Both the position numbers and the translations under genes were made by a program. Under the pieces are notes generated by a model. The model was not told where the DNA came from, searched no databases, and saw nothing but the letters and a program-made list of their open reading frames with translations. From positions 1 through 40,313 of IMG/VR virus record IMGVR_UViG_3300036919_000009: a stretch of 40,313 nt of DNA; one strand, written 5' to 3'. Positions 13,939 to 28,876 of the stretch are shown here, one piece after another; position 1 is the stretch's first letter, and the number at the start of each line of letters is the position of its first letter. This DNA comes from a virus.

Positions 13939-14949
13939 TTGCGGGGGGGCCAAATGGAGACATTCGAGACGATGAAAAAGACCATGATTTTGATGACGTT
14001 GCTGGCCCCGATCGGGGTCGGCTGCGCAGGGGCCGATGGCGAGTGGCAGGACTTCGGCGGGACCGAGCCGGAGCCAGCCGACGACAAACCATTGATGGCA
14101 GATGTCAAGTGGTCGGAGCCGGTTTACAAGCCGACTCTGAGTGACGGCACCGACGTTCCGGAGGAAGCGCTCGCGCCTCTGATGGCCAAGCTGGATGCCG
14201 CCCACGAACTCGGCATCGAGCTGGACGACTATCCGGCACTGGCCAACGCGCTGGAAGACCCCGGCGTTTCGGCGGGTGACGTTCCAGGGCTGGTCTCTGC
14301 CATGGGCATCACGGTTGACAAGCTCCAGCGCCCCTGGGGTTTCGGCTCCGACTCGGCCCAGAACGCATGCCAAGGGACGTGGAGCGGAACGTGTGACATT
14401 CCAGACACCAGGGGATTTGGATTCCGATCGCGTTGCGACGAGCCCAGTCCTCCCGCTGGGTGCAGTTCCGGCGGATACGGGATCCAAGTCGGCGGAGCCA
14501 TCTCCGCGGCGCTGGCCTGGGCCGAGTACTATCTCACCTATCAGACCGACTACTGGAGCGGAGTGTATCTGCCCTGGAACGCTCCCATCGGCAACATGCG
14601 CGTGACCACGAGCACAAGCTGTGGCCCGGGCGGGTGCGCGAATGCTGGTCTATCGCGCGCATCGTACCACTGGTGGAACGCTTTCGACGATCCGCGTAAG
14701 TACTACTTCTGTGAGGTGACCATTTATCGCGGAGCACTGGACTCGATTGCGGATCAGGCCGGAGCCAACCCGTCGCAGCGGTTGCGCTTCGCGCAGAACG
14801 TGACGCGGCACGAGGCTGGGCACTGCTTTGGGCTCGGGCATACCACTGCCGCCGGCACGCTGATGGGTCCCGCGAACTCGAACCACTTCAACTACGTCTT
14901 GGCCCCGACCAGCCAGGAACACGCGCTGATGGAACTGTACGTTCCGTGA
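13939..14949 (+). CDS. metzincin (matrixin-like) zinc metalloprotease lipoprotein
   Basis: The start is taken as the TTG at 13939 because AAAGGTGAT, an excellent ribosome site, ends eight bases before it; ATGs at 13954 and 13972 have no such site. The 336-aa precursor has a lipoprotein signal ending IGVGC (Cys29). The catalytic motif HEAGHCFGLGH (H291, E292, H295, H301) is the exact metzincin HExxHxxGxxH, followed by a Met-turn GTLMGP (M309). About eight further Cys suggest disulfides. A pro-region of ~70 acidic residues precedes the globular part. It would sit on the outer face of a membrane and cleave protein. It lies alone, divergent from the accessory operon and just before the lysis genes, so release, surface remodelling or superinfection exclusion are possible roles. 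Confidence 0.82.
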   Translation: MRGGQMETFETMKKTMILMTLLAPIGVGCAGADGEWQDFGGTEPEPADDKPLMADVKWSEPVYKPTLSDGTDVPEEALAPLMAKLDAAHELGIELDDYPALANALEDPGVSAGDVPGLVSAMGITVDKLQRPWGFGSDSAQNACQGTWSGTCDIPDTRGFGFRSRCDEPSPPAGCSSGGYGIQVGGAISAALAWAEYYLTYQTDYWSGVYLPWNAPIGNMRVTTSTSCGPGGCANAGLSRASYHWWNAFDDPRKYYFCEVTIYRGALDSIADQAGANPSQRLRFAQNVTRHEAGHCFGLGHTTAAGTLMGPANSNHFNYVLAPTSQEHALMELYVP

Positions 14950-15916: not shown

Positions 15917-16074
15917 TCCGTCGCCTCATCTACTGGCTCAGAGACCGACGGTACCGCCGTTTGCGGCGCCGGTACGCGTCGACCATGGCCCGGGACTCGA
16001 AGGCGGCTCAGGATGCGTCTGCCGCCCAGCGTGGCGCTACCCGCATCCACCTTGTAGATCCGCGACGCCGGTAA
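15913..16074 (+). CDS. 53-aa highly basic protein after endolysin
   Basis: The ATG at 15913 overlaps the endolysin stop (ATGA). The product has 16 Arg in 53 residues (MIRRLIYWLRDRRYRRLRRRY...), a cationic amphipathic N-terminus and a polar tail. It overlaps the end of the convergent sigma factor gene by 38 bases. Cationic amphipathic peptides in lysis cassettes can disrupt the outer membrane; whether this one does is not shown. Confidence 0.6.
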   Translation: MIRRLIYWLRDRRYRRLRRRYASTMARDSKAAQDASAAQRGATRIHLVDPRRR

Positions 16075-16702
16075 GGACCGCGCGCGCGCGGAGCTGGCCC
16101 AGAGCCTTCAGCTTGATCTGGCGGATGCGTTCGCGGCTCAGACCGAGCCGGTCGCCGATCTGCGCCAGGTTCTGCCCCTCGAAAAAGAACAGGCGCATCA
16201 CGAGGCGCGTCCTAGCGTCCAGCGTATCGAGCAAGTCACGCGACGCTGCAGCCCGCTGGTCGCTCTGCATTGACTCCTCTGCCGTGGCGGCATGGCTGGA
16301 CAGAAGCGACAGGAGGTTGGACCCGTCGTCTCGGATCGGCTCGTCCAGGCTCGTGGTCGGGCAAGGGAGCCAATCGAGTTCCGCGAGCGGGTCCGCTTTC
16401 ATCCGCAGCTTGTTTTTCTTCCTGGTCTTTTCCTGGACGTGGACCGGGATGCGAATGGTTCTGCCGCGATCTTGGGCCTCTCGGGCGATGTGGTGTCGCA
16501 CCCACCACGAGGCGTAGGTTGAGAACTTCAGGCCGCGCGAGTGGTCGAACTTGCGGGCTGCCACCATGGTGCCCTCGAGGCCGGCGTTGACCAGGTCTTC
16601 GAGTTCGAGTGCCCCGGTGCATGCCCAGGCGAAGCGCTTTGCGATAGAGTAGACGAGCCCGGTGTGCTCGCTGATTCGGATGCCGTTGATCACTTCTGCC
16701 AC
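16037..16702 (-). CDS. sigma-70 family RNA polymerase sigma factor
   Basis: The 221-aa protein starts at the GTG at 16702 behind a perfect GGAGGTGA. Region 2 is clear (LVYSIAKRFAWA at 16-27, ELEDLVNAGLEG at 33-44, FDHSRGLKFSTYASWWVRHHIARE at 52-75), followed by RTIRIPVHV at 81-89. A short variable stretch replaces most of region 3. Region 4 has LDARTRLVMRLFF from 161 and the -35-binding helix LSRERIRQIK at 188-197. It would bind host core RNA polymerase and direct it to phage promoters, probably late ones. It is the last gene of the minus-strand operon starting at 21.4 kb, so it appears after the DNA metabolism genes. Confidence 0.92.
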   Translation of the reverse strand: MAEVINGIRISEHTGLVYSIAKRFAWACTGALELEDLVNAGLEGTMVAARKFDHSRGLKFSTYASWWVRHHIAREAQDRGRTIRIPVHVQEKTRKKNKLRMKADPLAELDWLPCPTTSLDEPIRDDGSNLLSLLSSHAATAEESMQSDQRAAASRDLLDTLDARTRLVMRLFFFEGQNLAQIGDRLGLSRERIRQIKLKALGQLRARAVLTGVADLQGGCG

Positions 16703-18323: not shown

Positions 18324-18547
18324 CAACCCTCCTCTGCGGCGACCCGTTCGAGCTCCGCGCGCACCTCGTCGTCCAGGCCATCCAGGATGTCGCCCACTTC
18401 CGCGTGCAGCTTGCCGTTGACTCGATCGATGGCGGCCGCGCGTTGCTTCACTCGCAATCGGACTTTGGTTCTCACCTTCGGCGTGAGACTCCGGATCGTC
18501 TCGTACTGATCCAGGGTCAACTTTACTTCTCGTTTTTCGCTTTGCAT
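18320..18547 (-). CDS. 75-aa charged helical protein
   Basis: The ATG at 18547 lies 25 bases inside the end of the nuclease gene. The product (KREVKLTLDQYETIRSLTPKVRTKVRLRVKQRAA ... DDEVRAELERVAAEEGW) has a basic first half and an acidic second half and is almost entirely helical. It may bind nucleic acid or a partner protein. No family recognised. Confidence 0.65.
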   Translation of the reverse strand: MQSEKREVKLTLDQYETIRSLTPKVRTKVRLRVKQRAAAIDRVNGKLHAEVGDILDGLDDEVRAELERVAAEEGW

Positions 18548-18834
18548 TCGGCTCTCACTTTCTCGATTGCGTCTGCACCGCTGGTCACCACCAGCACCGG
18601 CAGCCCGTGGATTGACGCCTTGTCGTGCCAGATCACCTGTCGCGGCGTCAGCTTTCTCGCGCTAGGTGGCTTGCTCCCATCCTTGATCTCGACCGGCAGC
18701 CAGCGGCCTCGGTACCCAACGAGCAGGTCCGGGAACCCGCCGCCGGCTTCGTGGGTGTGGTGGACCAAGCATCCGATGGCTCGCAGCGCCATGACCACGG
18801 ACCGCTGGTTGTCGTCTACCTTGCCGGCTCTCAT
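18523..18834 (-). CDS. VRR-NUC-like PD-(D/E)XK nuclease
   Basis: The 103-aa protein starts at the ATG at 18834 (overlapping the previous stop, ATGA, after GAGGGGG). It shows the compact pattern of phage VRR-NUC or resolvase-fold nucleases: DDNQRSVVMALRAIG at 7-21, GGGFPDLLVG at 31-40 with D36, VEIKDG at 48-53 with E49 and K51, and LTPRQVIWH at 62-70 with Q66. Enzymes of this group cut branched or nicked DNA. Its place next to the exonuclease-RecT fusion suggests a role in recombination intermediates. Confidence 0.82.
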   Translation of the reverse strand: MRAGKVDDNQRSVVMALRAIGCLVHHTHEAGGGFPDLLVGYRGRWLPVEIKDGSKPPSARKLTPRQVIWHDKASIHGLPVLVVTSGADAIEKVRAECKAKNEK

Positions 18835-19274
18835 CCCCCTCGCCTCGCCTTCGCCGCTGCCGCTCGGCCGCGGGCGCGAGACGCATCGCGACCAGCATTC
18901 CAGCTGGTGTTTTTGCCAAGGACCTTTGCCTTTCTCCAGTCGTAGAACGGAGCATCGGTGTTGCCGCTTTTGCTGAGGACCATGCCCATCGAGCTCGCTA
19001 TCGTCGCCTGGACCGGCACCGGCTCTTCTGGAGCGTACCACTCTCCGCATGAGCACTCGCCGTTTTCCGGCCGTCGCCACGACATCCCCTCGCACACGGC
19101 GCACCGTGGCCCCTTGCGAGGTTGCGGGCCAAGGCGCGCCAGCGCGTTCGAACACTCGTTGCTGCAGCAGGCCATCACGCTGCCAGACTGACGCCTGGAG
19201 TGCTTCTTGCCACATGCCGGGTTGCGGCACTCGCCGGTCGTATTGCGGGCCCTGAACGCTGGATGCCGGCTCAT
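18831..19274 (-). CDS. cysteine-rich, probably zinc-binding protein (147 aa)
   Basis: The ATG at 19274 has AAGGGAG upstream. The N-terminal two-thirds contain Cys patterns that look like two zinc sites: CRNPAC ... CCSNEC, then CAVCEG ... CSCGEWY. The C-terminus is basic and Ala/Arg-rich (GRDASRARGRAAAAKARRGG), suggesting nucleic acid contact. No named family is recognised. It lies between the orphan DnaA domain protein and the nuclease, so a role in DNA handling or regulation is plausible. Confidence 0.68.
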   Translation of the reverse strand: MSRHPAFRARNTTGECRNPACGKKHSRRQSGSVMACCSNECSNALARLGPQPRKGPRCAVCEGMSWRRPENGECSCGEWYAPEEPVPVQATIASSMGMVLSKSGNTDAPFYDWRKAKVLGKNTSWNAGRDASRARGRAAAAKARRGG

Positions 19275-19555
19275 GCGCACTCCCTTCGCGCGACGGCGAG
19301 ACGGCGGGCAAAGTGCATGTCGGCGTCGGTCCTCGCGATGGCCCTGCGGACGCCATTCATGACAGTGGTGCTGTCGCGCCGCAGCGCGCGTCCGATCTGC
19401 GAGTAGCTCGCGCCGAGCTCTCGGGCCAGCAGCATCACCGCGAAACGAGGCTCGACCAGCTCACCGAATCGCCGATTCTTCAGCACATCCTCTGGCGTCA
19501 CACCCCACTGGTGGCACACCGACAGGATGATTCGTTGCATCTCGCCTTGCGTCAT
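19271..19555 (-). CDS. orphan DnaA domain IV-like DNA-binding protein
   Basis: The 94-aa protein starts at the ATG at 19555, overlapping the previous stop (ATGA). It matches the C-terminal DNA-binding domain of bacterial DnaA: ILSVCHQWGVTPEDVLKNRR at 10-29, EPRFAVMLLARELG at 35-48, SYSQIGRALRRDSTTVMNGVRR at 50-71. RDSTTV (60-65) stands where DnaA has RDHTTV, which reads the DnaA box. No AAA+ domain is present. It may compete for or mimic DnaA sites at host or phage origins, or act as a transcription regulator. Confidence 0.85.
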   Translation of the reverse strand: MTQGEMQRIILSVCHQWGVTPEDVLKNRRFGELVEPRFAVMLLARELGASYSQIGRALRRDSTTVMNGVRRAIARTDADMHFARRLAVARRECA

Positions 19556-21066
19556 ACTTGTTCCTGCATCTCTTCCGGGCAGTAGAGCCCCATCGTTGCC
19601 TTGGGCCAGAGCAGTCGAGCGAGCTTGCTGCCGGCGGTTTTGGTCAGCATGTCCCGTGGGCGCACGGTCCAGTTGCTCGGTTTTCCGTTCCGAGACGGCC
19701 GCAGCAGACCCGCGTCTTTCGCCTCCTGGATCGTGTAGGTGTATGGAGTCGGCTTCGGGTGGCGCTTGTGCTTCCCCTCCCACGTTGCCTTCTCGGTGTC
19801 TGATTCGACGAGCATCAGATACTCGAAGTCCGGGTCACGCTCCGCCAGCGCACGAATGAGATCGGCCGACGCCGATGGCTTGCCCTCGATGAGGTGGAAG
19901 CCGGCGAGCGCGGTGGTCCAGCCAAGGCCGAGCTCGCGGCCCCGGGACAGGATCGTGAAGATGGCCTGTGGCGAGCGGAACTGCGGGTAGAGCTGCCCCT
20001 CGTGGGCCCACTTGGCGATGCTGCGAGCGCTTTCCAGATCCATGGGCTGCAGGTCAGTATCCACCGCTCCGTACTGCGGGTGGCGAACGATGGCGCGCTC
20101 TACCTGCTTCGGTCGATGCGACTCGTACTTGCTTGGATCTGCCGGCTTTGCCGTGTCGTCCACCGGTTCGCCTTCCACCTCCTCAGGCCCGCCTGTCTCC
20201 GACTCTTCTTCGTCGTGGTCTGCCGACATTGCATCCTCCATGGCGAGCGGCTTCTGCTCCTTGCGCTCGAGCAGCGCCTCGACGTCGAGCGGCACGTCGA
20301 GGCGCAGCTTCACGAGTTCGAGCGAGCGTTGCAATTGGTCCCAGTTCTCGGCGAGCGCCTTTCCCATGGCCGGCTTGATGTCCGAGCGCCCGTCGTTCTC
20401 CGGGTCGGTCGAATCTGCCAGGGCTTTGGCAATCCCCTTGATGTCGCCGTACTGCTCGATGAGCCATGCCGCTTTCTTGCCACCGATGCCAGGGATGCCC
20501 GGTACGTCGTCCGTCTTATCGCCGCACAGGGCGAGCAGCAGTTGCATGCTCTCGGGGGCCACTCCGTACTTGGCAAGCACCTCGTCGGGGCCACGCACCT
20601 CACCGTCGCGGCCTCCGACCGGTGGCACGAACATACGCACGTTCTCACCGACCAGACAGGCCAAGTCTTTGTCACTGGCCACGATGCGGATGTCACGGCA
20701 CTCAGGGGCGAGTCGATGCGCCAGCGCGGCGATGACGTCATCTGCCTCGAAGCCCTTGGCGCGCGCCATCTGGAACCCAAGCTTGTCGATGCGATCCATG
20801 AGCCAGCGCTTCTGCGCCTGCTCGGCATCAGTAGGAGGTTCCCTGCTCGACTTGTATTCTGGGTCGATGGCAAGCCGATGCTCGTACGGCGGCGAGTCGA
20901 GGCACAGGATGACGTGGTCGACCGACTCCCGAATACCCTGGAGCTTGCCGATGCAGTCCTGGGCCGCTTCGTCCGGCTTGCCGTCGGGCACGCGCCGGTG
21001 CCAGGCCAGCTTCCACAAGTAGCTCAGGTCCACCAGCGCAATGCTGTCGTGCTCAGTTTGGCTCAC
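19552..21066 (-). CDS. 5'-3' exonuclease (FEN family) fused to a RecT-like annealing domain
   Basis: The 504-aa protein starts at the GTG at 21066 after GAGGTGG, overlapping the upstream stop. Residues ~8-235 form a complete Pol I/T5-type 5' nuclease: D13, CLDSPPYEHR (D57), PEYKSSR at 69-75, FEADDV (E107, D109, D110), SDKDL (D132, D134), GDKTDDVPGIPGIG (D183, D186, D187; helix-hairpin-helix). A ~100-residue acidic linker follows (DHDEEESETGG). Residues ~345-504 resemble RecT: SPQAIFTILSRGRELGLGWTTALAGFHLIEGKPSAS (365-400), TIQEAKDAGLL, RPRDMLTKTAGSKLARLLWP, GLYCPEEM. Exonuclease and annealase are normally separate (Exo/Beta, RecE/RecT). One open frame with no stop links both halves here. Confidence 0.87.
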   Translation of the reverse strand: MSQTEHDSIALVDLSYLWKLAWHRRVPDGKPDEAAQDCIGKLQGIRESVDHVILCLDSPPYEHRLAIDPEYKSSREPPTDAEQAQKRWLMDRIDKLGFQMARAKGFEADDVIAALAHRLAPECRDIRIVASDKDLACLVGENVRMFVPPVGGRDGEVRGPDEVLAKYGVAPESMQLLLALCGDKTDDVPGIPGIGGKKAAWLIEQYGDIKGIAKALADSTDPENDGRSDIKPAMGKALAENWDQLQRSLELVKLRLDVPLDVEALLERKEQKPLAMEDAMSADHDEEESETGGPEEVEGEPVDDTAKPADPSKYESHRPKQVERAIVRHPQYGAVDTDLQPMDLESARSIAKWAHEGQLYPQFRSPQAIFTILSRGRELGLGWTTALAGFHLIEGKPSASADLIRALAERDPDFEYLMLVESDTEKATWEGKHKRHPKPTPYTYTIQEAKDAGLLRPSRNGKPSNWTVRPRDMLTKTAGSKLARLLWPKATMGLYCPEEMQEQV

Positions 21067-21242
21067 GACGCCACCTCGAACAGCCGCACGACCCGCACGC
21101 ATTCTTCCCACGCGAAGCAGACGACGCCGAGCTTCGCCAGCTCGGATGCAACGCGGAGCGCCGTGAGGCGCCCGGTGCACACGATGACGTTGTCCTCGTG
21201 ACGAACGATGCCGCGGTCACGGACTGACTTTGCGAGATTCAC
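21063..21242 (-). CDS. 59-aa hypothetical protein
   Basis: The GTG at 21242 overlaps the preceding stop (GTGA), and its own stop overlaps the next GTG in the same way. The two gene starts share the same upstream GGTGGCGTCGTGA sequence. The product (IVRHEDNVIVCTGRLTALRVASELAKLGVVCFAW) alternates beta and helix, a small alpha/beta protein. Not recognised. It is probably co-translated with the exonuclease-RecT fusion. Confidence 0.62.
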   Translation of the reverse strand: MNLAKSVRDRGIVRHEDNVIVCTGRLTALRVASELAKLGVVCFAWEECVRVVRLFEVAS

Positions 21243-21775: not shown

Positions 21776-21964
21776 TTAGCGGTCCCGCCCCATGTGCAGC
21801 GGCGGACGCCCCCAGTGCACCGTGGTCTGTCCCTTGGCTGGGTCGGCCACCACTGGCGTCGACGGTCCGCGTTGCTCGTGTCGGTTGCCCCATGGTGTGA
21901 AGCCGTCGTTGAAAGTTCCCGCGGGCCAGCGTTCGTACTGAAACGGGTCGTTCGGGTCACTCAT
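21776..21964 (-). CDS. 62-aa hypothetical protein with MSD-type start
   Basis: The ATG at 21964 overlaps the upstream stop and sits behind AAGGGACGAG, a ribosome site repeated at other gene starts in this genome. The product (MSDPNDPFQYERWPAGTFNDGF ... GRPPLHMGRDR) is polar and probably weakly ordered. No family is recognised. Confidence 0.58.
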   Translation of the reverse strand: MSDPNDPFQYERWPAGTFNDGFTPWGNRHEQRGPSTPVVADPAKGQTTVHWGRPPLHMGRDR

Positions 21965-21983
21965 CTCGTCCCTTTCGGTTGGT
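21961..21983 (-). repeat. start-cassette repeat, copy 1
   Basis: This 23-bp sequence, read on the minus strand, ends one gene (codons for QPKGTR and TGA) and supplies AAGGGACGAG plus ATG for the next. The same 23 bases recur at 22146-22168 and 23064-23086, and a part recurs on the plus strand at 26487-26512. Confidence 0.85.
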
Positions 21984-22149
21984 CACGACGCTTCTTCCTC
22001 TTCTGCTCGGCCAGCCACTTGCGCCGCGCTTTTCGGTTCATCCCTTTGACCACCTCGACTTGGCCGGCAGGTATGGGAACGGTGTAGCCGGCGGCCTCCG
22101 CCGTCTCTTGATCTGGAAAGTGCCCAACATCACAGTCTCGTTCTCTCAT
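21961..22149 (-). CDS. 62-aa protein with basic C-terminus
   Basis: The ATG at 22149 uses the repeated AAGGGACGAG ribosome site. The product has an acidic start (MRERDCDVGHF), a central PIPAGQVEVVKG and a very basic end (NRKARRKWLAEQKRKKRRDQPKGTR). The last residues QPKGTR and the stop are encoded by the repeat that provides the next gene's ribosome site. It may bind nucleic acid; function unknown. Confidence 0.58.
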   Translation of the reverse strand: MRERDCDVGHFPDQETAEAAGYTVPIPAGQVEVVKGMNRKARRKWLAEQKRKKRRDQPKGTR

Positions 22150-22181
22150 CTCGTCCCTTTCGGTTGGTCAGGCATCGCCTG
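22146..22181 (-). repeat. start-cassette repeat, copy 2
   Basis: Identical over 23 bases with copy 1 and nearly identical over about 35 bases with copy 3 (23064-23098), differing at two positions. It contains the ribosome site and ATG of the 62-aa gene at 22149. Confidence 0.85.
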
Positions 22182-23067
22182 CTTTCTCTGCGTCGATCAG
22201 GCGACGTGCTTCGGCAACCAAATTACGCACCTCTTCGTCAACGGCGCCATCAAGCCAGCCTTGGATGTCATCGAGCACGTCCGCCAGCGTGCGCTTTGGT
22301 GGGTGGCGTTCGGCGTGAAGGTCAGACAGGAACTCTGCAGCCTTGAAAGCGCCTGCGTCCTTGAGAGCTTCCACGATGATGTCGAGGTCGGCTCGGTCGG
22401 CCACGCAACACCAGTCCCGCTCGGCCCCCGTCATGGCCGGGGCGCAGGATTCGAGTTCCTGCTTCAGGCTCAAGGCTTCGGCGTTGGCGCGAATGCTTTC
22501 CTCAGCTGCTGCCCCCTCGGCGTTGACCCACTTCCTGACCTCCTCCTGTAACCGGTCCCGCTCCGCCTCTAACTCTACAATGCGCTTTCTCTGCTCGAAT
22601 GCGCCGCGCTCGATTGCGTCCAAGGCCACATCAGCCGACTGGACAGGGAACGGCCCGAAAGCCTCGTCGGCTATCGTGCGCGTGCGCTCCCACAGTTCTT
22701 CAGCCCGCTCGCGCTCGCGGGCCTTGTCGGCGAGCTGCTCGGCCAGTCGCTCGTTGTCAGCCGACAGCTCCTGGTACTTGACCGCCGGCTCCGGCCAGGG
22801 CGCGCGCAGGAGGCGAAGCGCCATCTCCTGAAGCTTAGCGCCGTACGTCGTCCACTCTCCTCCCGACGGGTCGTACGCCGCCAAACGCAACTCGTGCATC
22901 GCCCCGATGAATTCGTCCGTCGCGGTCAACGCGGGCTCAGGCTGGGCCAGGACCGAGCGGGCGGCGTCGAGCACGTGGCTCCAGTCTCCAGGGCCGCCGG
23001 CGCAGCGCTCCCAAAGCTCCAGCGCCTCCCGCAACCGCTCCCGCGGCGGCTTCGTTTCGTCACTCAT
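22168..23067 (-). CDS. long coiled-coil protein with MSDETK start cassette
   Basis: The 299-aa protein starts at the ATG at 23067 (overlapping the upstream stop, ATGA). Residues ~110-225 form a strong coiled coil (ELSADNERLAEQLADKARERERAEEL ... RKRIVELEAERDRLQEEVRKW). The N-terminal MSDETKPPRERL matches the 67-aa protein at 26719. The C-terminal RTLADVLDDIQGWLDG ... EEVRNLVAEARRLIDAEK parallels the end of the 182-aa protein at 26915, and both contain LRAP(W/R)PEPA. The two are therefore relatives on opposite strands. No enzyme motif is visible; a scaffold or regulatory role is possible. Confidence 0.7.
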   Translation of the reverse strand: MSDETKPPRERLREALELWERCAGGPGDWSHVLDAARSVLAQPEPALTATDEFIGAMHELRLAAYDPSGGEWTTYGAKLQEMALRLLRAPWPEPAVKYQELSADNERLAEQLADKARERERAEELWERTRTIADEAFGPFPVQSADVALDAIERGAFEQRKRIVELEAERDRLQEEVRKWVNAEGAAAEESIRANAEALSLKQELESCAPAMTGAERDWCCVADRADLDIIVEALKDAGAFKAAEFLSDLHAERHPPKRTLADVLDDIQGWLDGAVDEEVRNLVAEARRLIDAEKAGDA

Positions 23068-23099
23068 CTCGTCCCTTTCGGTTGGTTGGGCATCGCCTG
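23026..23099 (-). repeat. start-cassette repeat, copy 3 with MSDETK coding part
   Basis: It includes the ribosome site, the ATG at 23067 and the following codons for MSDETK-PRERL. The leader part matches copies 1 and 2; the coding part matches 26495-26512 and 26719-26752 on the plus strand. Confidence 0.82.
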
Positions 23100-23228
23100 G
23101 TCCACGCCGTCTCCCGGCGCCAGACCGTACTGCCAGACGCAACTGACGCCTTTCGACCGGTACGTGCCCCTCAGGTACATCACCCAGAAGACGGTATCCC
23201 ACGGGCGCCAGAGTTGCACGTCACGCAT
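23064..23228 (-). CDS. 54-aa hypothetical protein
   Basis: The ATG at 23228 overlaps the end of the helicase loader gene by eight bases. The product (MRDVQLWRPWDTVFWVMYLRGTYRSKG ... QAMPNQPKGTR) is aromatic-rich in its first half. Its last residues and stop are encoded by the repeated start cassette serving the next gene. Not recognised. Confidence 0.58.
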   Translation of the reverse strand: MRDVQLWRPWDTVFWVMYLRGTYRSKGVSCVWQYGLAPGDGVDQAMPNQPKGTR

Positions 23229-23793
23229 CGAACCCGTCCCATACCAGCACCGCATGTCCCGCGTGCTGCTCGATGATGCGTCGCACGTAGGCCGCCCCGA
23301 GGTGCTGCACCAGTTCCTGGCGCGTGAGGCCAGAGGTCGCGATGGTTGGCAGCTGTCGGGCGTACCGGTAGTCGAGTAGCTCTTGAATGGCCTGGGGATC
23401 CTTTTCGGAGCCGACATCGTCGAGCACCACGTACCCCTGTCCGCGAGCTCGAGCCACCAGCTCAGGAGGGCCGGCCCCCAGCGGGTGCTCCCGCTGCGCC
23501 ACCGCCAGGTCAACTGAGCGCACCATCAGGTATGGCGCGCCGGCCAGCATCCACTTCGCCGCACTGGTCTTACCAATGCCAGTCGGGCCGAGCAAAAGGG
23601 CCGATGGGGTTTGATGGGCCCTGGCGGCACTCAGGAGGCGTTTTTGGATACGGGGCTCCAGTTCCCGCCTGGCCAGGTCACGGGCTTGCTTGCGCGCGGC
23701 GGCGCGCTCGCGTTGCCCGTCCTCGTCTGGCGCTCGCACCTGGCGGATCGTCGCCAGTAGCTCGTCCGTGGTCGTTGCCTTCGGTCCAGTCAT
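23221..23793 (-). CDS. DnaC-like AAA+ helicase loader
   Basis: The 190-aa protein starts at the ATG at 23793 behind AAGGGG, overlapping the initiator stop (ATGA). It carries Walker A LGPTGIGKTS at 68-77, Walker B YVVLDDVG at 121-128, a sensor-1-like PTIATSG at 149-155 and an arginine pair R171-R172 (box VII position). The ~50-residue basic helical N-terminus is where DnaC-type loaders contact the DnaB helicase. Partnered with the initiator just upstream, it should load the host replicative helicase at the phage origin. It is somewhat shorter than E. coli DnaC. Confidence 0.85.
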   Translation of the reverse strand: MTGPKATTTDELLATIRQVRAPDEDGQRERAAARKQARDLARRELEPRIQKRLLSAARAHQTPSALLLGPTGIGKTSAAKWMLAGAPYLMVRSVDLAVAQREHPLGAGPPELVARARGQGYVVLDDVGSEKDPQAIQELLDYRYARQLPTIATSGLTRQELVQHLGAAYVRRIIEQHAGHAVLVWDGFDA

Positions 23794-24620
23794 GCTTTCC
23801 CCTTGATGATGTTGGCGTTTTCGAATCCGGTTAGGCCGTGGTCGCGCTGCTTCGATCCTGGCCTGCTGCGCCCAGAGCGCTTCCCTTCGGCGAGCTCAAC
23901 GAGGTACTCAACCTTGGAGCCTGACTTGAAGATTGTGTCTACTCCGGTCCAGTTTTTCCCGTTCGTTTTCGGGTCTCTACCCATCAGCCAGTCATCGAGC
24001 AGGACGCCATCGACCGCCGTCTTGAGCTGCTCCACGGTGAACCCCTCCCGGAGCCGTGCCCGGATTCGACGGTCCCGGTCTCCGGTGAGCTTCTTCTTCG
24101 GGGATCCCAGCTTGGCGCGCCAATGCTCGAACACCTCTCGGACCTGGGCGGCTTTGGCGTCGGAGCCATCTGGCTTCGACGAAATAGATCCCTCTGGCGA
24201 TGCCTCTGGAGCTGGAGTTGGAGCTGTATCTGGTGGGGACATCTGAGACTGTCCAGGACATTCGCTGTTTCCCTTTTGATTACGCTCCCTCCACTGTGAC
24301 TTTCGCACAGCATCGATGCTCCTCACCTCGCGGTAGAACTCGAAGTTGACCAGTTGCCAACAGCCCTGCATCGGGATGACGCGGACCCCTTGCATGACTC
24401 CGGACTTGTCGTCAGAGTCCGGCGAGGCGAGTACCCCCAGAGCTCTGCGGCAGTCCTCTACCGACACATTCGCGCGGCGAGCCAGCCCGCCCTCTGAGGC
24501 ATGAACGATTCCGTTGCGAGTGGCCATTGCCAGCATGGTGATCCAGACGATTCTCGTGGTGTCGTCCTCGCTCCAGATGCTGGAGTCCAAGATCGACGAG
24601 TACAGTTTCGCATAGGACAT
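23790..24620 (-). CDS. replication initiator / replisome organiser
   Basis: The 276-aa protein starts at the ATG at 24620 with no ribosome site; the start falls at the expected transcription start, so the mRNA is probably leaderless. The N-terminal half (AKLYSSILDSSIWSEDDTTRIVWITMLAMA ... EGGLARRANVSVEDCRRALGVL) is a winged-helix typical of phage initiators. A Pro/Ala/Ser-rich linker (about residues 118-150) follows, then a C-terminal domain REVFEHWRAKLGSPKKKLTGDRDRRIRARL ... GKNWTGVDTIF found in many phage replisome organisers, which recruits the helicase loader. Gene order (initiator then DnaC-like) matches lambda O-P logic. Confidence 0.84.
   Translation of the reverse strand: MSYAKLYSSILDSSIWSEDDTTRIVWITMLAMATRNGIVHASEGGLARRANVSVEDCRRALGVLASPDSDDKSGVMQGVRVIPMQGCWQLVNFEFYREVRSIDAVRKSQWRERNQKGNSECPGQSQMSPPDTAPTPAPEASPEGSISSKPDGSDAKAAQVREVFEHWRAKLGSPKKKLTGDRDRRIRARLREGFTVEQLKTAVDGVLLDDWLMGRDPKTNGKNWTGVDTIFKSGSKVEYLVELAEGKRSGRSRPGSKQRDHGLTGFENANIIKGKA
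24191..24238 (-). repeat. four degenerate 12-bp repeats in the initiator linker (origin candidate)
   Basis: On the plus strand the units read CCTCTGGCGATG, CCTCTGGAGCTG, GAGTTGGAGCTG and TATCTGGTGGGG. They code for a Pro-rich linker in the initiator. A GTCCAGGAC palindrome (24251-24259) and an AT-richer patch (24259-24284) lie next to them. In lambda-type phages the origin lies inside the initiator gene as repeats beside an AT-rich stretch, so this is the best origin candidate. The repeats may instead reflect only the linker's amino acid composition. Confidence 0.4.
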
Positions 24621-27807: not shown

Positions 27808-28373
27808 TGGCCGACCCGAAGAATCCGTACGACAAGTGGCTGATCGTCGCCGATCTGTCGAGGTATCGGCGCGAGCAGCTGAAAGGCATGTCTCGCGCCT
27901 GGGAGCGCTGTGCCGACGCCTACCGTCCGTTGCTCGAGGAGGCCCGCGCCGAGGTCGAGCGGCTGATGCTGGAGGCTGCCAGCCATGTCGACGCACTGAA
28001 CGCGGCTCTCGCCGAGGTCGAGCGGTTGCGAGTAGATTTGCACGAGGCTGCAGAAAACTGCACGAGAGCATTGAGAGAAGCTTCGATCTGCGCTCGTCGG
28101 CGTTGCGTATGCGAAGACGAGCGCGACGACCTGCGCGCCCGGGTGGAGGAGCTGGAGGGGGCCGACGAAGCTGACCAGGTGGCACGCGCGACGAAGCTGG
28201 CCGACCTCACGGTTGCGTCGCTGAGACTGAGCCATTGCACCCCCGACGAGCGCGCGGTGCTGAGTCTCGCCAAGGTGTGGGAGGCCATCGGGAGCACCAA
28301 GGGATGTGAGGCAGACCGTACCCTGGCAGCGGCCGTGTCGAAGCTGCCTGATGGCTCGGAGGCGGACCGGTGA
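27807..28373 (+). CDS. 188-aa coiled-coil protein
   Basis: The ATG at 27807 overlaps the previous stop. The N-terminal half is a long coiled coil (RYRREQLKGMSRAWERCADAYRPLLEEARAEVERLMLEAA ... ALAEVERLRVDLHEAAENC), followed by a Cys-containing CARRRCVCEDERDDLRARVEELEG and a compact C-terminus. It resembles other coiled-coil proteins of this genome in style rather than sequence. Function unknown. Confidence 0.66.
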   Translation: MADPKNPYDKWLIVADLSRYRREQLKGMSRAWERCADAYRPLLEEARAEVERLMLEAASHVDALNAALAEVERLRVDLHEAAENCTRALREASICARRRCVCEDERDDLRARVEELEGADEADQVARATKLADLTVASLRLSHCTPDERAVLSLAKVWEAIGSTKGCEADRTLAAAVSKLPDGSEADR

Positions 28374-28876
28374 GGGCCGGCGCCACGTTCAGCCCGTGCC
28401 GCACGTTCCGGTACACGCTCTGGCGCATTTGGGACGAGTCGCTGCCCAACGTTTGCTTCTGCGCGTTGAATCCCAGCACCGCCGACGAGACGGTGGACGA
28501 TCCAACCATCCGACGTGAGATTCGGTTCGCCAAGGACTGGGGGTTTGGTTCGCTCGTGAAGGTGAACGCATACGGTTACCGGGCCACCGACCCCAAGATC
28601 ATGAAGCGCGCGCCAGACCCGATTGGCCCCGCCAACGAGCACTTCCTGCTGTGCAAGGCGATGCAGGCTGGAAGGTTCATCGCGTGCTGGGGGACGAACA
28701 TCGACAAGACCCACCAGGCCCGAATCCTGAACGAGCTACGACGGAGCGACGTCGACGTCTGGGCCCTGAAGCTGACCAAGTCCGGCTTCCCCTCCCATCC
28801 GCTCTACCTACCGAAGAACACCGAGCCGTTCATCTGGAAACCGAAACCCGCCATGCGCGAGGAGGCCGACTCGTGA
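28370..28876 (+). CDS. DUF1643-family protein
   Basis: The GTG at 28370 overlaps the previous stop (GTGA). The 168-aa product has the DUF1643 signature: RYTLWRIWDE, VCFCALNPSTADETVDDPTIRRE, FAKDWGFGSLVKVNAYGYRAT, IACWGTNID, and KSGFPSHPLYLPK. The family is common in phages and mobile elements, and its biochemical function is not settled; conserved NPSTA and HPLY motifs suggest an enzyme. The length is normal for the family. Confidence 0.82.
   Translation: MRAGATFSPCRTFRYTLWRIWDESLPNVCFCALNPSTADETVDDPTIRREIRFAKDWGFGSLVKVNAYGYRATDPKIMKRAPDPIGPANEHFLLCKAMQAGRFIACWGTNIDKTHQARILNELRRSDVDVWALKLTKSGFPSHPLYLPKNTEPFIWKPKPAMREEADS

Follow-up and report, generated by a model that had tools for sequence, protein, structure and literature searches.

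The pairing of an exonuclease with a RecT annealase is already known, and phages nearly always keep the two activities in separate proteins; recombineering relies on phage recombinases of this exonuclease-plus-annealase kind. The stretch of viral DNA analysed here (IMG/VR record IMGVR_UViG_3300036919_000009, 40,313 nucleotides, hereafter the window) raises the question of whether one viral gene can encode both parts and, if so, how its product might work.

Gene and reading frame

The gene is located on the minus strand, where an open reading frame of 504 codons followed by TGA runs from 21066 to 19552 (GTG start at 21066–21064, TGA at 19554–19552) and is recognised by both Pfam and PHROGs; on the plus strand the same interval is interrupted by a stop. 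The 504-codon frame of a preliminary description, which gave no strand, is thereby placed on the minus strand. A GTG further upstream at 21180, giving 542 aa, is a possible start but is disfavoured because the relatives begin at about the same alignment position as the 504-aa form and a Shine-Dalgarno-like sequence, GAGGTGG (21071–21077, minus strand), lies ~5 nt upstream of the 504-aa GTG. The stop codon overlaps the ATG of the downstream gene, encoding a DnaA C-terminal domain, in an ATGA junction, which is what a true gene of an operon would show.

The N-terminal nuclease domain

Residues ~1–275 (20242–21066, minus strand) constitute a domain of the FEN or PolI/T5-type 5' nucleases. Both Pfam families of this group exceed their cut-offs in the window protein, 5_3_exonuc_N (PF02739, 5.3e-23, residues 9–168) and 5_3_exonuc (PF01367, 1.7e-19, residues 169–263), and both are matched by all 51 fused proteins of the family described below. 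PHROGs assigns this half to an exonuclease family (phrog_107, 3e-25) and NCBIfam groups it with PolI and Xni-type 5' nucleases. When the domain model was compared with the PDB using Foldseek the matches were a plant plastid exonuclease, E. coli ExoIX (TMt 0.86), T5 FEN (~0.74) and M. smegmatis FEN (~0.68), so that the nuclease half, as modelled, has the fold of known FENs and matches flap endonucleases of the ExoIX/T5 type. ExoIX (Xni) and the 5' nuclease domain of PolI share this fold and are the nearest families in sequence, but ExoIX is not fused to an annealase and PolI joins its nuclease to a polymerase.

Eight acidic residues (D13, D57, E107, D110, D132, D134, D183 and D186) are invariant in all fused members covering each position and D109 is kept in 50 of 51, while D187, which 45 of the 51 replace by Asn, is no conserved ligand. 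Nine of the ten acidic residues listed in the preliminary description thus hold as conserved metal ligands and D187 does not. Judged from the alignment the acidic metal-ligand set of the FEN family is complete, and the half would be expected to act as a 5' exonuclease or flap endonuclease.

The RecT domain and the linker

The nuclease domain is followed by an acidic, disordered linker (residues ~276–336; 20059–20241, minus strand) and by a RecT/Redbeta-type single-strand annealing core (residues ~337–504; 19555–20058, minus strand) that extends to the C-terminus and lacks the usual tail. The AlphaFold2 model of the full-length protein, built with the 51 fused homologues, has a mean pLDDT of 89 with two confident domains separated by a disordered stretch (residues 283–325, pLDDT <50), and the RecT part modelled alone reaches 95.8. 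Sequence matches to this half came from PHROGs (RecT-like phrog_4171, 9e-8, residues 375–500; phrog_561, 8.5e-7), from Pfam RecT (PF03837, 9.4e-6, residues 460–502) and, weakly and at the extreme end of the protein, from Bet of NCBIfam. A profile of the RecT part matched Redbeta (7ujl) in hmmsearch at 2.1e-7, and the same structure was the sole significant Foldseek match in the PDB (E 7.7e-6, prob 1.00, TMq 0.57). These matches exclude the prospect, raised in the preliminary description, of a C-terminal half without RecT similarity; the half belongs to the RecT/Redbeta family by sequence and predicted core fold. The acidic linker and the RecT motifs quoted in that description were both found in the window protein, and its two domain assignments agree with the sequence, the predicted folds and the family comparison.

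The structure of Redbeta shows the template strand in contact with W143 and R161, and annealing drops ~1000-fold when R161 is mutated (PMC9512822). The profile search aligns these two residues with W466 and R484 of the window protein, the latter present in all fused (51/51) and unfused (25/25) proteins and the former in 49 of 51 fused ones. These residues bear on whether the C-terminal half could have lost annealing and merely serve as a DNA-binding or oligomerising module directing the nuclease to junctions of ssDNA and dsDNA. Such a loss would fit the modest Pfam RecT similarity (25.7 bits, with the cut-off at 24, and just 27 of the 51 fused members at E 0.001), the missing C-terminal tail and the Thr found in 18 of 51 fused proteins at the position of Redbeta K154. 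However, it is made very improbable by the retained counterparts of W143 and R161, by the confidently modelled full annealing core matching Redbeta and by the low dN/dS of this half (see below). Strand annealing and oligomer formation are accordingly the activities that sequence and model would predict for the RecT half.

The linker varies in length from 37 to 182 aa across the fusions and its net charge is negative in every one of them; speculatively, it could hold the two DNA-binding domains apart. In four fusions (L017, L019, L028 and L057) a short acidic motif, for example EAEFDPIS or DSDDIPIS, recurs in otherwise unrelated linker sequence, with looser forms in L052, L055, L063 and L074, and this could be a candidate docking motif.

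A family of FEN-RecT fusions

The window protein used as a single query retrieved no related loci and a broad alignment of 14 sequences contained no usable stretch. The RecT motif IEGKPSxSADL, written as a degenerate DNA pattern, opened the family: it found 19 viral loci, five of them with both halves in one frame. A subsequent profile scan gave 80 loci and brought the number of distinct fused proteins to 51. A second scan, keyed on the RecT half alone and hence not favouring the nuclease, yielded 43 loci with the fusion and 37 without it, two of the unfused ones being truncated by the start of their contig. Taken together, the fusion occurs on 74 IMG/VR contigs in addition to that of the window. 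The search for other two-domain proteins that the preliminary description had proposed thus yielded 50 more distinct proteins of the same architecture, far beyond chance.

The chance that an error in sequencing or assembly merged two genes, or that the gene is decayed, is negligible, although in the window taken by itself, a single IMG/VR record, a local error would be conceivable. Assembly error and frameshift are ruled out by the 51 distinct fusions from separate contigs, all open through their linkers, and both halves are under purifying selection; the missed stop or frameshift that the preliminary description had allowed for is likewise excluded by the 50 independent fused homologues.

When three divergent fusions were compared by tblastn with 50,697 phage records (INPHARED), none of the hits covered 80% of the query and the coverage was partial at most. 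A scan of bacterial genome contigs gave no match across both halves among the best 80, which mostly concerned the FEN half. No report of a FEN-RecT fusion was found in a literature search covering mostly papers open without subscription, and the family appears to have been hidden in uncultured phages so far.

Origin and selection

A maximum-likelihood tree built from 76 RecT cores places all 51 fused proteins in one clade (support 99/94), recovered in 200 of 200 bootstrap trees, and the fused FEN domains also group together (SH-aLRT 99). Since the fused RecT domains form one clade, the simplest reading of the tree is that the fusion arose once, followed by a long spread. Three rows inside the fused FEN group look unfused, L081, L083 and L098, the first two being cut by the end of the contig or locus. 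The third (L098, 9500–11296) carries a relative of the fused FENs whose C-terminal part is different, unrecognised and not RecT. At another locus (L110, 9914–12393) a RecT with a tail and a FEN-type nuclease are separate neighbours, RecT first, an independent association without fusion.

In all ten close pairs dN/dS is below 0.5 in both FEN and RecT and mostly higher in the linker; both halves are under purifying selection.

Loss of the RecT tail and probable replacement of the exonuclease partner

A consistent difference between fused and unfused proteins is found after the RecT core, where all fusions have 0–8 residues and all intact unfused relatives 81–268 (81–261 in the first set and 94–268 in the RecT-keyed scan, with 0–8 for the fusions in both). 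The nearest unfused RecTs (L015, L016, L027 and L031) have ordinary tails, and beside two of them, L016 and L031, lies an ORF for a PD-(D/E)XK exonuclease. Among 27 unfused loci, 17 (eight of them annotated seeds of that search) had a detected ORF of this kind, and no such ORF was detected near the fused loci. Annotated phage and plasmid relatives often adjoin lambda-exo, YqaJ, RecE-like or other PD-(D/E)XK genes. In the second set, 100 crude neighbour ORFs of 35 unfused loci included one YqaJ, one PDDEXK_1 and one DUF2800, against no match to a PD-(D/E)XK-type family among 99 neighbour ORFs of fused loci, a weak contrast. Because of these few exonuclease neighbours the argument for an exchange of exonucleases rests mainly on the first set of loci. 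Taken together, the lost tail and the lack of a detected PD-(D/E)XK neighbour at the fused loci suggest that the exonuclease was supplanted by the covalently joined FEN.

The C-terminal region of Redbeta takes part in an exonuclease contact needed for dsDNA recombination, heterologous pairs fail and truncated Redbeta still anneals; the domain contributes to ssDNA recombination too, in a way that exonuclease binding does not explain (PMC5052646). A C-terminal domain beyond the core is a common feature of the RecT family and is not needed for annealing itself. The loss of the tail maps to one ancestral event and therefore constitutes one data point, not 51. The general claim that fusion makes the tail dispensable is weakened by the RecE-RecT protein of phage phiV10, which has ~98 residues past its RecT core.

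The replication operon

The fusion gene is part of an early module on the minus strand, in the order initiator, helicase loader, small genes, FEN-RecT, DnaA_C and resolvase-like endonuclease. The first gene (23790–24620, minus strand) encodes an O-like or DnaD-like replication initiation protein (phrog_16167, 1.9e-14; further matches to phrog_345, 1e-5, and phrog_186, 2.6e-4) and is followed by a DnaC-like helicase loader (23221–23793, minus strand; phrog_50, 5e-13). Directly after the fusion comes a stand-alone DnaA C-terminal DNA-binding domain (19271–19555, minus strand; PF08299, 1.6e-15), and in the same operon a protein of ~103 aa resembling Holliday-junction resolvases or endonucleases (18523–18834, minus strand; phrog_93, 4.9e-11; phrog_5702, 3e-5). 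The DnaA domain is of the origin-binding type and may direct phage or host replication. A family scan of the 61 window ORFs gave no other exonuclease among the 25 top families listed per library, and no DNA polymerase of the phage's own was among the family matches listed. Neighbours of other fusions include integrases and repressors, and in four cases an SSB, so some of the phages bearing FEN-RecT are probably temperate.

Comparison with known recombinases and a proposed mechanism

Gene 37 of phiV10 (YP_512292.1), annotated RecE-RecT, is the closest precedent; its RecT part matches the profile of the fusion family (1.9e-19) and it has been called a RecET fusion protein (PMC8766483). Like the window protein it is one polypeptide with the exonuclease ahead of a homologous RecT, and it is a recombination gene of a temperate phage, but its exonuclease is annotated as RecE without a FEN match and it retains residues beyond the core. 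The preliminary description had called the protein unusual for its use of a FEN nuclease; the joining of an exonuclease to RecT itself has a precedent in phiV10.

SynExo pairs (lambda Exo/Redbeta, RecE/RecT and the YqaJ-RecT operons) resemble the fusion in combining a 5'-3' exonuclease with an annealase of the RecT/Redbeta family, and their exonuclease gene often adjoins recT. Unlike the fusion they consist of two separate interacting proteins, with an exonuclease of the PD-(D/E)XK fold and a RecT tail, which in Redbeta makes the exonuclease contact; in the family described here there is a single frame with no PD-(D/E)XK exonuclease detected nearby, and the physical coupling of exonuclease to annealase would be covalent, given the predicted activities. 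FEN-superfamily 5' nucleases also act in phage recombination and replication as separate proteins, such as T5 D15 and T7 gp6, the latter working beside the separate annealing protein gp2.5, which is an OB-fold ssDNA-binding protein and not a RecT. The earlier statement that the partner exonucleases are of other folds is softened by the T7 pair. Within the records and papers searched, three features are new: the nuclease is of the FEN type, RecT has lost its tail, and the fusions make up a large family of single origin known so far from uncultured phages only.

From the sequence comparisons and models, the fusion is probably a single-polypeptide single-strand-annealing recombinase in which 5' resection by the FEN replaces the usual RecE or lambda Exo partner. 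On phage DNA undergoing replication, the N-terminal FEN-type nuclease would bind a double-strand end, a nick or a 5' flap and remove the 5' strand. This would expose the 3' single strand, on which the RecT domain, carried by its flexible linker, would assemble before annealing it to complementary ssDNA, for example in a lagging-strand gap at a fork. Flaps remaining after annealing could be trimmed by the same FEN half, and the resolvase-like nuclease of the operon could finish branched intermediates. The covalent tether would replace the exonuclease-recruiting contact of the C-terminal region of lambda Redbeta, a region absent from all fusions. We infer the enzymatic activity, the hand-over of ssDNA, which is plausible, and the order of the steps.

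FENs are typically structure-specific and distributive, unlike the processive end resector lambda Exo, which counts against resection. The chief rival, to which we give a clearly smaller chance, is that RecT first anneals ssDNA, in gaps or at forks, with the FEN afterwards removing 5' flaps or RNA primers, resection being left to host nucleases. This would suit a family whose members are flap endonucleases (T5 FEN, ExoIX and M. smegmatis FEN in the Foldseek comparison), the position of the gene among replication genes (initiator, helicase loader and DnaA_C) and the lack of an own DNA polymerase among the listed matches. However, the unfused relatives pair RecT with PD-(D/E)XK exonucleases of the resection type, none of which were seen beside fusions, and the order of nuclease and RecT is that of phiV10 RecE-RecT. 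Resection before annealing and trimming after it could also coexist.

As a resecting recombinase the fusion would probably repair and recombine phage DNA in one step. With nuclease and annealase covalently joined and the partner-binding tail gone, it might even be a self-sufficient, host-independent enzyme, one gene that resects, anneals and trims flaps and could drive dsDNA recombineering where lambda Red fails, although we regard this as rather unlikely. Lambda Red fails in some bacteria for lack of matching partners and the fusion, if the idea is true, could serve there, a single-gene dsDNA recombinase being a practical and compact genome-editing tool. The family also makes it testable why the exonuclease must touch the annealase and what purpose the C-terminal domain of the annealase has.

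Other features of the window

Three direct repeat copies (21957–22006, 22142–22191 and 23060–23109; core TCATCTCGTCCCTTTCGGTTGG) are found in the early operon, above chance expectation, and are possibly a start-codon/RBS or regulatory repeat. A phage-encoded sigma-70-type factor with regions 2 and 4 is located at 16037–16702 (minus strand). On the plus strand, 13939–14949 encodes a predicted exported protein with weak matches to metalloproteases (M10/M12), a Matrixin match being present beside another fusion locus, and 28370–28876 encodes a DUF1643 protein (9.8e-39), a family that is also found beside another fusion locus.
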